Of a stretch of 38,646 bases of DNA, positions 20,727 to 27,396 are shown in pieces (the stretch's first letter is position 1; every line of letters starts with the position of its first letter). Below the pieces are notes generated by a model, which was not told the origin of the DNA, made no database searches, and saw only the letters and a list, made by a program, of their open reading frames with translations. The DNA is from Bifidobacterium breve. Lineage in GTDB: Bacteria > Actinomycetota > Acidimicrobiia > Acidimicrobiales > Microtrichaceae. The translations under genes and the position numbers were made by a program. Location of the stretch: NCBI GenBank assembly GCA_945901935.1, contig CAMDLX010000012.1, positions 1 to 38,646 on the forward strand, read 5' to 3'.

Positions 20727-22559
20727 ATGCCCCGTCGTCTAGAGATCGAACTAACAAGTGAACGCCCCGATGGCACATGGACCTGGCGCGCAGCCGGAGC
20801 CAAACAGCCCAAAGGCGATTTACGCTCATCCATTCTTCCTGCAGGCTGCAAGGTCGGCGATGTCGTTCGGGCTGATGCCGAGTTCGAACTAGAGGGCATC
20901 GAGATTCTTCATGTGCTGCCTCCAAAGGCTGCAAGAAAAGAACCTGAGATGTTGACTGTGATTGGAACACGCCAGGACGAGCCGCTCGTCACGAGCACTC
21001 TGGTTGAGAAGTCGGGTCGTTCACGTGATGGCGACCGCGGAGGGTCGCGTCGTGATCGTGAGGATCGCGGTCCACGTGGTGACCGAGGGCCACGCGGCGA
21101 TCGTCCCAATGGTGATCGTCCTGGTGGCGGCCGTGGCGGTGGACGCGACGGTGCTGGTGGAGGCCGTCCAGGTGGGGACCGACCCGGAGGAGATCGACCC
21201 GGAGGCGACCGTCCCCGCAGCGATCGTCCCCGCGGCCCTCGTCCGGAAGCTGTTCCTGAACGTCCACGGCCAAAGCGCTTGCGCCCAGGTCGCGCACACC
21301 GAGCAGCGGTTCTTGACACGCTCCCGGTAGAGCATCGTCCCATCGCCGAGCAGGTCATTCGGGGCGGAGTTCCGGCCGTACGTGAAGCAATTGCTGAGCA
21401 AAACGCCCAAGCTAAAAAGGAAGGCCGAGCAGAGATCCCCTCAGAGCAACTGATTGGTCTCGCAGAAGACCTGCTGCCTCAGCTGCGCGCTGCTGAGTGG
21501 ATGGATCGAGCCGAGGCAGCGTTAGCTGACCTCGAGGAGCTAGATCTTCGTGACCTTCGTTCTGTAATCGTGGCAGCAGATGGCGTTGCCCGCGATCCCG
21601 AGGCCTTGGCCCTGAAAGATCAGATTCAAGCAGGGCTTACCCGACGAATTGAAGAGGAACAGGCCCTATGGATTGCAGATATCACTGCCAATCTTGATGG
21701 TGGTCGATTCGTTAGGGCGCTCCGTCTGAGTTCACGTCCACCAAAGGCCGGCGCCCCGCTTCCGGTTGAACTATCTAGTCGCTTAGTCACAGCGGTGTCT
21801 GAGGGACTTACCCCAACGGTCAATCAGGACCTCTGGGCCGCAGCATTGGATGCTCTGGCCTTTTCGCCTGTTCGCAATCAGGTCACCCCAGCGGGTCGAC
21901 CTGAGGAACCCTCCCCCGCCCTGCTCGACGCTGTTCGGCGCGTTGGTGATCGTTTGCCCAAGATTGTTCTGTTGTTTGGGCTTGATCCCGCCGAGATTGC
22001 TGCAGCAGCAAAGAAGCGTGGGCGAACTGGACTCCGCGGCTCAAAGCCCGGCGGTTCAAAGTCCGGCGGCGCGAAGTCCGGCGGTTCAAAGTCCGGCGGC
22101 TCAAAATCTGGCGCATCGAAGCCCGAATCAGCCAAGCCTGAATCAGCAGAGCCCGAATCAACTCAGCCCGAGACTCCGACACCCAGTTCGGATCCGGGTG
22201 CTGAACAAAGTCCTGCTAGTGCAAACAACGATAGGGAGAACAATTCAATGAATACTTCAGAGGAATCATCACCAGTAGCGCCAGGCGAAGTCACTATTGA
22301 CGAGATCATCATTGGCGAGGAGATCATCGTCGAAGAGACCATTTTGGTCGAGGAAGTCTTGATGGAAAACAGCGATGGAGAAGTCGTCCTTGTCGAGGAC
22401 ATCATCGTTGTGGAAGACACCATCGTGATTGACGATGTGCTCCTCGTAGAGAGCATCGACGGCGTAGTCGTTGACGTCGAGGAAATCCTCGTCGTCGAGG
22501 AGACAGTCACCGTTGATGAGGTCATCATCGTCGAGGAACTCACAGCCGAAGACTCCTAA
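20727..22559 (+). CDS. Three-part Arg-Gly-rich/helical/acidic-tail protein, unknown function
   Basis: 610 residues. Residues 1-80 form a small beta-rich domain (LEIELTSERPDGTWTWRAAG; GCKVGDVVRADAEFELEGIEI), possibly OB-like. Residues about 90-180 are an Arg/Asp/Gly-rich linker with repeated DRPGGDRPGG, the composition of RNA-binding RGG segments. Residues about 185-425 are helical (VLDTLPVEHRPIAEQVIRGG; ADLEELDLRDLRSVIVAADG), faintly like DUF349-type helical proteins. A Ser-Gly-Gly-Ser-Lys repeat linker follows. The last about 95 residues alternate acidic pairs with Val/Ile/Leu triplets, as in VVEDTIVIDDVLLVE. No signal or membrane segment. An internal ATG at 22248 with an AGGGAG site could make the acidic tail alone. 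RNA binding is inferred from composition. Confidence 0.85.
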   Translation: MPRRLEIELTSERPDGTWTWRAAGAKQPKGDLRSSILPAGCKVGDVVRADAEFELEGIEILHVLPPKAARKEPEMLTVIGTRQDEPLVTSTLVEKSGRSRDGDRGGSRRDREDRGPRGDRGPRGDRPNGDRPGGGRGGGRDGAGGGRPGGDRPGGDRPGGDRPRSDRPRGPRPEAVPERPRPKRLRPGRAHRAAVLDTLPVEHRPIAEQVIRGGVPAVREAIAEQNAQAKKEGRAEIPSEQLIGLAEDLLPQLRAAEWMDRAEAALADLEELDLRDLRSVIVAADGVARDPEALALKDQIQAGLTRRIEEEQALWIADITANLDGGRFVRALRLSSRPPKAGAPLPVELSSRLVTAVSEGLTPTVNQDLWAAALDALAFSPVRNQVTPAGRPEEPSPALLDAVRRVGDRLPKIVLLFGLDPAEIAAAAKKRGRTGLRGSKPGGSKSGGAKSGGSKSGGSKSGASKPESAKPESAEPESTQPETPTPSSDPGAEQSPASANNDRENNSMNTSEESSPVAPGEVTIDEIIIGEEIIVEETILVEEVLMENSDGEVVLVEDIIVVEDTIVIDDVLLVESIDGVVVDVEEILVVEETVTVDEVIIVEELTAEDS

Positions 22560-25037: not shown

Positions 25038-25583
25038 CTACTTCTTTGCAGCCTTCTTGAGTCGCTTCTGAACCTGTGCAATCGAAGGGCAGGGTGAGTA
25101 CCCCTCGGGGCAAACCAGATTGTCTTTGGGCCCGAATTGGCGCGGGTGGACAATCATGAAACAGGTCCCACAGGTGAACTCTTCAGCAGACTTGGCTGCA
25201 ACCCGTTCTGTACCGTCCGCATCAGAAGAGGCATCGGAGATTTCTTCTTCTTCGTCCTCGTCATCAGGAGTTGCAGCGATTCGGTCTTTCAAGATGGCGT
25301 CGAGGTCCGCCTCAACGTCGTCAGGGTCTACGTCTTCATCTTCGTCGTCATTAACATCGGAAGGACGCTTACGCCGAGCGGCTGGAGCATCATCCTCTTC
25401 CTCCTCGACAACAACCTCTGCAGAGACATCGTCAACTATGACGTCTCCGACAACAAGATCGTCGAGGTCGCCGTCATCCTCTAGCTCGTCTACTTCAAGG
25501 TCGTCTTCCTCGAGTTCTTCCTCCTCAAGGGCTTCGACCTCTTCGCCATCAATGTCATCTTCCAAGATTTCTCTTCCGTTCAC
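25038..25583 (-). CDS. DUF4193-like acidic zinc-binding protein
   Basis: 181 residues. The N-terminal 125 residues are extremely acidic (runs such as EALEEEELEEDDLEVDELED) and probably disordered. The last about 50 residues hold EFTCGTCFMIVHPRQFG and NLVCPEGYSPCPS, a four-Cys zinc site (CxxC plus CxxxxxxC) like the C-terminus of the actinobacterial DUF4193 family, whose function is unknown. Mycobacterial members have about 100 residues, so the acidic arm here is unusually long. Starts with GTG 25583; no ATG is in frame and no clear ribosome site is seen. It is 188 bp downstream of the ThyX gene; that gap holds nothing I can identify. Confidence 0.83.
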   Translation of the reverse strand: MNGREILEDDIDGEEVEALEEEELEEDDLEVDELEDDGDLDDLVVGDVIVDDVSAEVVVEEEEDDAPAARRKRPSDVNDDEDEDVDPDDVEADLDAILKDRIAATPDDEDEEEEISDASSDADGTERVAAKSAEEFTCGTCFMIVHPRQFGPKDNLVCPEGYSPCPSIAQVQKRLKKAAKK

Positions 25584-25761: not shown

Positions 25762-25790
25762 GGACTACGGCTAGCTCGCAGGACTACGGC
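25762..25790. repeat. 10-bp direct repeat flanking the thyX stop codon
   Basis: GGACTACGGC occurs at 25762-25771 and 25781-25790. The thyX stop (TAG on the minus strand, 25771-25773) lies at the edge of the copy at 25762, so one copy is coding and the other is just past the gene. Confidence 0.7.
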
Positions 25791-27396
25791 GAGTCTCGGC
25801 TTGACGTTCAGCCTGAAGACGCTCAAGTTCAGGCTCACCCGAGTGATCCACAAACAGCATCATCTCGGCAATGGTCCTGTGGCCCGCCTGCTCGGCGATG
25901 AGGCGATGCATTTCTTGGCCCACAGAGCGATAGCTGGGATGGCCCTGAATAGAGGTTCGCAACTCAATCAAATGCATGGCTTCTCGTGCGTTGAACTGCA
26001 TGGCGTAACGGATGCGATAGGCCAAGGAAACTGCGTACCCGGCACGCTCAGGGAATCGTTCGGACAAATCGGTCCAGAGATCCTTTGAGATACCCATGGC
26101 CTCATCAAACTGAGCCGTGAGTCCAGCGTCATCGATGGAAACTGGTCGCGTGTACCCATGCCGCGGCGTAAGTTCTTGCCATTCAATAGTCATGAGTCGG
26201 TGACGCTGCAGGTCTCTGAATGCGCCGTAGTCAGAGACAACATCAAAGCGATAATCAGTTCGCTCTAATGCTCGGCCAGGCTTGTGACGCCTATTTGTTC
26301 GCTCGCCAACATATGCCCGAGCAACTGCGAGTCGGTCATCAACCGACATCAGGCGTACTCGGTCAAGAATCTGGGCCTCTGGGATACTGGTATGCGGATA
26401 CAGCATCGCCGCAATGACTTTGACCTCACCCTCGGGATCCCAATCAAGCAGGGTCACCGTTGGGGCAGCTAGGCCAGAGGATTCATCACCGGGCAACATC
26501 TCGTAGGCAACAGTTTCCATGGCTTCACGATTATCGGACATGTACTTCGAGGAAGCTCCGCCTCGGTCTGGAAGATCAACTCGTCGCAGAAAGCTGGGTA
26601 TGACCTTTCGGAGCTCAACCAGCATCAATTCCGAATATTGCCGAGCCTCTGGCAGAGGGTGAGAGCGCATCCGCAGTAGCAAGGCTTCGAAGCCCTGACC
26701 TGAGCCATAGATTCCGACATTCGAGAGCGAGGCAGCGGGAAGGATTCCTCGGGTGGCATCAAAGGCCTTGGCACGTATGGCCTGCCGATAAACGAAGTCG
26801 GAATCCTGCTCATTCTTTGGATAGCGCTCCCGGAAATGATCCTGGATTGACCGAGCAAGTTCTCCGTAGGTATCGAATAAGCGATCCATATCGCCTACAT
26901 ACCGGGCCCCCATGTTGGACCCTAGGAGTTCGGGATCTCGGTGATAGCGGAACCGTCCGCCGAGCCGCTCGTCATAAGGGATGTACCGAGTCGATTGCTC
27001 GAGGTACGACATCAGCCGGCCCCACTCCAGTATCTTGGTGAGCAAGTTCGAGGCCTGCTCACATGCAAGGTGTACGCCACCTAGCTGAGCGACGCTGTCG
27101 TCGCCGTATTCAAAAAAGATTCGGTCGTAGAGTGCCTCGGCGCGATCCAAACCAATCGTCGCATCTACTGACTCATCACCAGTCGTATCTAGCTCTCCGA
27201 CGAACTCGTCGACGAACAACCTCCGCAGCGACTTAGCAGATCGGGAATAACGCGCAAACAACGCACCCTTCACCACCTCGGGAAGGTTGACAAGCGCAAA
27301 GACTGGACCGTCGAGATTTGAGAAGTACCGCCGGAGGACAACTTGCTCCTCCTCCGTGAACTGCTCTGCGACGTACGTTGGTACGAGGGAACTCAC
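25771..27396 (-). CDS. thyX: Flavin-dependent thymidylate synthase, tandem double-domain form
   Basis: 541 residues, twice the usual 220-250. ThyX makes dTMP from dUMP using methylene-tetrahydrofolate, NADPH and FAD. The classical signature is RHRxxSxxxxSxRY. The N-terminal half has WGRLMSYLEQSTRY (about 125-138): the RHR is lost but both Ser and the RY remain. The C-terminal half has RHRLMTIEWQELTPRH (398-413): RHR remains but the second Ser is replaced by Glu. Each half also has the conserved LR-containing C-terminal helix (EALLLRMRS; HLIELRTSI). An intact active site would therefore have to be built from both halves. Starts with GTG 27396; first gene of a run containing the DUF4193-like and GNAT genes. 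Confidence 0.93.
   Translation of the reverse strand: MSSLVPTYVAEQFTEEEQVVLRRYFSNLDGPVFALVNLPEVVKGALFARYSRSAKSLRRLFVDEFVGELDTTGDESVDATIGLDRAEALYDRIFFEYGDDSVAQLGGVHLACEQASNLLTKILEWGRLMSYLEQSTRYIPYDERLGGRFRYHRDPELLGSNMGARYVGDMDRLFDTYGELARSIQDHFRERYPKNEQDSDFVYRQAIRAKAFDATRGILPAASLSNVGIYGSGQGFEALLLRMRSHPLPEARQYSELMLVELRKVIPSFLRRVDLPDRGGASSKYMSDNREAMETVAYEMLPGDESSGLAAPTVTLLDWDPEGEVKVIAAMLYPHTSIPEAQILDRVRLMSVDDRLAVARAYVGERTNRRHKPGRALERTDYRFDVVSDYGAFRDLQRHRLMTIEWQELTPRHGYTRPVSIDDAGLTAQFDEAMGISKDLWTDLSERFPERAGYAVSLAYRIRYAMQFNAREAMHLIELRTSIQGHPSYRSVGQEMHRLIAEQAGHRTIAEMMLFVDHSGEPELERLQAERQAETRRSPAS

Follow-up and report, generated by a model that had tools for sequence, protein, structure and literature searches.

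The product of a single open reading frame within the window (the whole analysed stretch of 38,646 nucleotides) is composed of two ThyX domains fused head to tail, between which the residues of one ThyX active site are divided. This double ThyX is very probably a functional flavin-dependent thymidylate synthase in which one dUMP site has survived per pseudo-symmetric pair of domains, and a whole bacterial order appears to depend on it for the thymidylate required for DNA. The gene and its two halves are arranged as follows.

25771..27396, minus strand: double (fused) ThyX gene, an ORF of 541 amino acids with a GTG start and two PF02511 stretches; orthologues in 95 of 99 genomes of the order
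26482..27396, minus strand: N half, residues 1–305, ThyX fold, supplying the Ser-Arg-Tyr/Arg147 face
25774..26481, minus strand: C half, residues 306–541, ThyX fold, supplying the RHR/Arg174 face

The reading frame extends from the GTG at 27396 to a stop codon at 25771–25773. Thy1 (PF02511) was the only family matched in the Pfam scan, in two stretches (E 5e-29, 101.8 bits against a cut-off of 24.8), while the ThyA domain (PF00303, Thymidylat_synt) had no match in the source genome and hence none in this protein. With the NCBIfam ThyX equivalog TIGR02170 the protein scored 39.9 bits, below the cut-off of 87.9. The two halves share 15 % identity with each other and 18–19 % with Thermotoga maritima ThyX. 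Among the relatives listed, the closest named one is a protein of Actinobacteria bacterium IMCC26207 (99 % identity), and the remainder belong mainly to Acidimicrobiia/Acidimicrobiales. Two neighbouring genes lack a Pfam match: a 610-aa ORF at 20727–22559 (plus strand), for which 22 of 80 related loci hold a relative close to the double ThyX gene, and the downstream neighbour at 25038–25583 (minus strand), which is kept beside it in 29 of the 80 and whose product is strongly acidic in its N-terminal region and rich in Cys at its C-terminal end (CGTC...CPEGYSPC).

Since a phmmer search with the full-length sequence as query gave nothing but spurious hits among PDB sequences (EF-Tu, for example), the halves were compared by fold. 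The full-length model, built with 29 orthologues, reached a pLDDT of 83 and a pTM of 0.85, the latter suggesting that the predicted relative placement of the halves is confident. Its C half matched a Thermus ThyX structure (Z 16.4, rmsd 2.3, 183 residues); the comparison of the full model returned the C half only, and the N half was therefore folded and compared separately. Modelled alone (pLDDT 84.7), the N half matched ThyX structures with a Z of 13.1 over 189–206 residues, the next unrelated fold having a Z of 5.0. The fold matches included Corynebacterium 3fnn and 3ge9, whose titles point to a function other than making thymidylate; the existence of such proteins with a ThyX fold, like the low TIGR02170 score, speaks against a thymidylate synthase.

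A genome with a single thymidylate synthase candidate and no dihydrofolate reductase (DHFR) shows the pattern classically associated with a functioning ThyX. Profile searches over 99 genomes of the order of the source genome (Acidimicrobiales), in each of which the control genomes responded, revealed Thy1 in 95, almost invariably as a pair of matches within a single reading frame, as well as ThyA in 3, DHFR above the cut-off in 2 (both directly beside ThyA) and thymidine kinase in 25. The double ThyX occurs without ThyA and without DHFR in 92 of the 99 genomes, and 69 of those 92 also lack thymidine kinase, the only salvage route covered. This profile makes the double ThyX most likely a working flavin-dependent thymidylate synthase, with, as its sequence suggests, one live site per domain pair. 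In the phylum sample most genomes with a double ThyX likewise lack ThyA. The gene adjoins that of dCMP deaminase and lies near that of dUTPase in phage Tunturi_5, and is close to a dCTP deaminase gene on a Euzebya plasmid.

The only two DHFR genes of the order above the cut-off lie immediately downstream of its rare ThyA genes (L154/L155; G061:C8 and G042:C270), a pattern consistent with joint acquisition of a thyA-folA pair by genomes that have also kept the double ThyX. Four genomes that are 91–96 % complete (G030, G086, G097 and G098) yielded no ThyX, ThyA or thymidine kinase, reflecting either missing contigs or another route to dTMP. A weak ThyA match alone (30–50 bits, in a frame of approximately 230 aa, sometimes with an in-frame stop) was found in G113, G118, G128 and several dozen actinobacterial genomes, many of which also lack ThyX; these matches possibly represent a divergent ThyA-like enzyme.

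A ThyX-like uracil methylase acting on another substrate is improbable, although it has a precedent in PolB, a ThyX relative that methylates UMP (PMC5003785), and the active-site neighbourhood of the double ThyX does differ, His53 having been lost. Against such a function stand the order-wide profile, in which the double ThyX is the only thymidylate synthase candidate, with no DHFR, in 92 of 99 genomes, and the scarcity of ThyA among its carriers across the phylum sample.

The arrangement of residues in the double ThyX is best understood from the classical enzyme, whose active site is formed where three chains meet. In Mycobacterium tuberculosis ThyX, chain A provides RHR (95–97) and Arg199, chain C provides Ser105, Arg107, Tyr108 and a contact through the backbone of Gln103, and chain B provides Ser71 and Arg190 to the FAD phosphates (PMC6514825). 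PolB is split in the same manner, with Arg82/His83 and the unprimed Arg193 on one chain and Ser96′/Arg98′/Arg166′ and Glu94′ on the other (PMC5003785), and in PBCV-1 ThyX Gln75/Arg182 and Ser88 belong to different monomers (PMC3498832). Mutants of Ser88, Arg90 and Tyr91 are strongly impaired, and Arg174 has been proposed to activate dUMP (PMC8316439). In T. maritima numbering, which is used below for the roles, A comprises R78, H79, R80 and R174, C comprises E86, S88, R90, Y91 and R147, and B includes T55 and R165 and probably also H53, as deduced here from PMC11940539. Assembly in trans is thus the rule, and a pair of chains ordinarily yields two sites that mirror each other. The subunit roles, which are also described in PMC4632503, match the partition found in the double ThyX exactly. 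Its elements are the following.

26983..27009, minus strand: S130–Y138, with E133, S135, R137 and Y138 equivalent to T. maritima E86, S88, R90 and Y91, kept in the N half of 154/154 proteins (Tyr91 in 153/154)
26749..26751, minus strand: R216, equivalent to Arg147, the dUMP-phosphate Arg on the same face as S135/R137, kept in the N half of 154/154
27016..27024, minus strand: W125-G126-R127, N-half relic of RHR with the first two residues lost, Arg-His lost in 154/154
26197..26205, minus strand: R398-H399-R400, equivalent to RHR, FAD/dUMP-binding face, kept in the C half of 154/154
25957..25959, minus strand: R480, equivalent to Arg174, proposed to activate dUMP, kept in the C half of 154/154
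26158..26178, minus strand: Q407–H413, degenerate ELSGRY segment of the C half, variable across the family
25984..25992, minus strand: N469-A470-R471 in the C half, equivalent to Asn163/Arg165, third-subunit FAD-phosphate role, R471 in 135/135 of the Actinomycetota type
27094..27102, minus strand: D99-D100-S101, N-half counterpart of His53/Thr55 with Ser kept and His replaced by Asp, D99 and S101 in 135/135 of the Actinomycetota type

The N half reads W125-G126-R127-L-M-S130-Y-L-E133-Q-S135-T-R137-Y138 and the C half R398-H399-R400-L-M-T-I-E-W-Q-E-L-T410-P-R412-H413, in which the spacing from RHR to Thr is two residues longer and the Ser and Tyr are gone. Consequently, the ThyX signature RHRX7S is absent from any single chain segment (WGRX7S in the N half, RHRX9T in the C half) and becomes complete only when the halves are combined. 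The earlier note had read the N half as keeping S-x4-S-x-RY without RHR, and it does so, with only the third Arg of RHR left; the first Ser of S-x4-S (S130) is not conserved, being replaced by Ala in the family about as often as it is kept. The C half, described there as having RHR without the second Ser, does retain RHR, but its loss is larger and encompasses the whole Glu-Leu-Ser-x-Arg-Tyr segment plus Arg147. The Arg174 position of the N half, R242 with a gap in one alignment and M/L in a wider one, is treated as lost or displaced.

The same partition was found when 154 double ThyX proteins from Actinomycetota, Bacillota plasmids and viruses, and tailed phages were aligned, with identities down to approximately 20 %. 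E86, S88, R90 and R147 are present in the N half of all 154 and Tyr91 in 153 (one Phe), whereas R78, H79, R80 and R174 are present in the C half of all 154, such that the full set occurs once per protein, counting the one Tyr91Phe. Arg-His occurs in 0/154 N halves, Tyr91 in 0/154 C halves and an Arg147 equivalent in 2/154. A second alignment, which included classical ThyX rows, gave the same partition in the doubles, with the classical rows carrying all of the residues. The role-C residues of 12 viral Bacillota-type loci were partly selected for, these loci having been fetched by patterns including EYSQRYQ; the remaining sets were fetched via Pfam, tblastn or patterns outside the motif. Partition by chance is ruled out by the agreement of these 154 sequences.

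A composite site of C-half RHR and R174 with N-half E86/S88/R90/Y91/R147 is thus possible in 154/154 proteins and the reciprocal site in 0/154, which argues for one working site per domain pair, the reading that the earlier note had favoured and the one best supported here. The split between chains is not itself new, as RHR/Arg174 and Ser-Arg-Tyr/Arg147 already lie on different subunits there; what is new is the degeneration of the mirror site. Four equal sites, as in the homotetramer, are argued against by the sequence.

Activity of both half-sites, with T410, R412 and H413 acting as substitutes in the C half and R127 in the N half, is very unlikely. Some C halves do keep Ser (72/154) or Arg (49/154) at those positions, and R127 is invariant in the Actinomycetota-type lineage of the window protein, the only one to keep the third Arg of the relic; but the C-half segment is variable (PRHG, NNGL, NCSH, SDKL), Tyr91 and Arg147 are missing from the C half at the frequencies given above, and no N half possesses Arg-His. 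There is equally little to recommend an N half serving solely as a structural or regulatory pseudoenzyme with catalysis confined to C-half dimers. The main FAD-binding elements are indeed kept in the C half, including Asn163/Arg165 in the window lineage, but the C half lacks the S88, R90, Y91 and R147 set, and the N-half residues that are invariant in all three lineages are exactly these catalytic ones. An assembly or annotation artefact merging two genes, or a decaying pseudogene, as might be feared from a metagenome-assembled genome that is 84 % complete in 225 contigs, is refuted by the orthologues, which share this fused frame in almost every genome with a match (95 in total), the single-contig G002, G006 and G032 among them, most relatives across the families of the order being 54–70 % identical.

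In the favoured single-site enzyme, the two halves would form a pseudo-symmetric dimer that retains just one of its two dUMP sites. FAD and dUMP would lie between RHR/R480 of the C half and the S135/R137/Y138/R216 face of the N half: the C half would hold both ligands via RHR, with R480 (Arg174) activating dUMP, and the N half would close the site with its Glu86/Ser88/Arg90/Tyr91 equivalents, R216 (Arg147) binding the dUMP phosphate. Tyr138 and Ser135 may act on the flavin-bound carbon as in ThyX. The mirror site, formed by WGR of the N half and QELTPRH of the C half, is predicted to be catalytically dead, and the probable assembly is a pair of chains whose four domains resemble the ThyX tetramer but offer two live sites rather than four.

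A tree of 83 half-domains groups the 34 N halves in a single clade (SH-aLRT 99), and a branch with an SH-aLRT of 98 separates every one of the 34 C halves from classical ThyX, although the exact place of the phage C halves is uncertain owing to their long branches. The family is thus explained by one old fusion, and the partition is probably older than the split into three lineages. These are the Actinomycetota type (135 doubles, including Euzebya, Miltoncostaea and one Parabacteroides plasmid), the Bacillota plasmid/virus type (14) and the tailed-phage type (5: Tunturi_5, Vibrio Yong XC31, Vibrio BONAISHI, Microcystis Ma-LMM01 and Microcoleus My-WqHQDG). The double ThyX of Parabacteroides distasonis plasmid NZ_OY725790.1 (L148) is 45 % identical to the actinobacterial one and was apparently transferred laterally between phyla. 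Two Bacillota virus doubles (L187, 3001–5433; L189, 3001–5508) contain an insert of approximately 330 aa with intein-like ends (CYDE... and ...SGN|S), which in L187 has a LAGLIDADG match. It immediately precedes the N-half residue Ser55, which binds FAD, a hint that the position is under functional constraint in these proteins.

The lineages differ in the placement of the third-subunit role. Arg165 is found in the C half of 135/135 proteins of the Actinomycetota type, the N half there having Gln in 135/135, and in the N half of 14/14 proteins of the Bacillota type, the C half there having Trp in 13 and Arg in 1; the latter protein, L190, has Arg165 twice, once per half, and resembles an intermediate between the two placements. 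The window lineage has Ser55 in the N half, Arg165 and Glu58 in the C half and His53 in neither, with the C-half 53–58 register resting on spacing to RHR and wider alignments, as MAFFT misplaced this region in one alignment. The folate-stacking His53 is replaced by Asp in the N half and Pro in the C half, and folate binding, at least, must therefore differ; in the Bacillota and tailed-phage lineages the N-half position is His. Further invariant residues surround positions 53–58 in both halves of the window lineage. The predicted dead site would still be lined by invariant residues, namely D99-D100-S101, R127 and Q234 of the N half and N368-R369-R370 and R375 of the C half.

Such a swap of Arg165 would be expected if the A/C pair were fixed and the second pair docked oppositely in two lineages. 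A tentative extension, which we consider possible but less probable than its converse, is that the fused pair is fixed, that pairs dock in two opposite ways and that the dead site serves as a second, non-catalytic nucleotide-binding or regulatory site. In the Actinomycetota type two C halves would then face each other and share both FADs, whereas in the Bacillota type the partner would bind the FAD phosphates with its N half. If true, one enzyme family would have undergone a swap of quaternary packing after gene fusion.

Databases already call such proteins FAD-dependent thymidylate synthases, and PHROG 36506 is a known phage double. Classical ThyX (T. maritima TM0449, M. tuberculosis ThyX; PF02511, TIGR02170) resembles the double ThyX in the fold of both halves, in having all catalytic and dUMP/FAD residues of the A and C roles, each present once in the double, and in the genomic profile. 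It differs as a homotetramer of identical chains rather than a fused pair with one site per pair, in an RHRX7S motif that neither half of the double possesses and in a His53 that is absent from the window lineage. PHROG 36506 (Microcystis phage Ma-LMM01 gp20 and relatives, 'thymidylate synthase') has the same fused architecture and residue partition (L193), but is approximately 22 % identical and keeps His53 in its N half, and its family entry gives no mechanism. The Bacillota plasmid/virus doubles (e.g. WP_269108148.1, annotated as FAD-dependent thymidylate synthase) share the A/C partition, with an RHR-like segment and Arg174 in the C half and Ser88/Arg90/Tyr91/Arg147 in the N half; unlike the window protein, they carry Asn163/Arg165 and the His53/Ser55/Glu58 set in the N half, and one relative passes TIGR02170 at 95.3 bits. 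The nearest analogy is the herpesvirus dUTPase (Epstein–Barr virus), in which the subunit of a multi-chain enzyme was likewise duplicated and fused, with one composite site and rearranged motifs (PMC8961515), although its fold and reaction are unrelated and it is a monomer with one site. A literature search for double, tandem, fused or duplicated ThyX, with most subscription journals outside its coverage, found no description of the fusion, of a site divided between the halves or of the loss of the mirror site. Given the split motif and the low TIGR02170 score, searches based on RHRX7S or TIGR02170 can miss or underscore double ThyX proteins.

ThyX, an essential enzyme known as a symmetric homotetramer whose four sites are equal, also exists in a fused form in which half of the sites have probably been discarded, which suggests that four sites are not needed. 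The lineage with Asp in place of His53 calls into question the role assigned to the folate-stacking His. The double ThyX constitutes a natural experiment: because residues can be altered in one half only, the share of each chain in a single ThyX site becomes testable, which a homotetramer does not allow. The fused form spans a whole bacterial order and several phage groups, and apparently survives as the sole thymidylate synthase.
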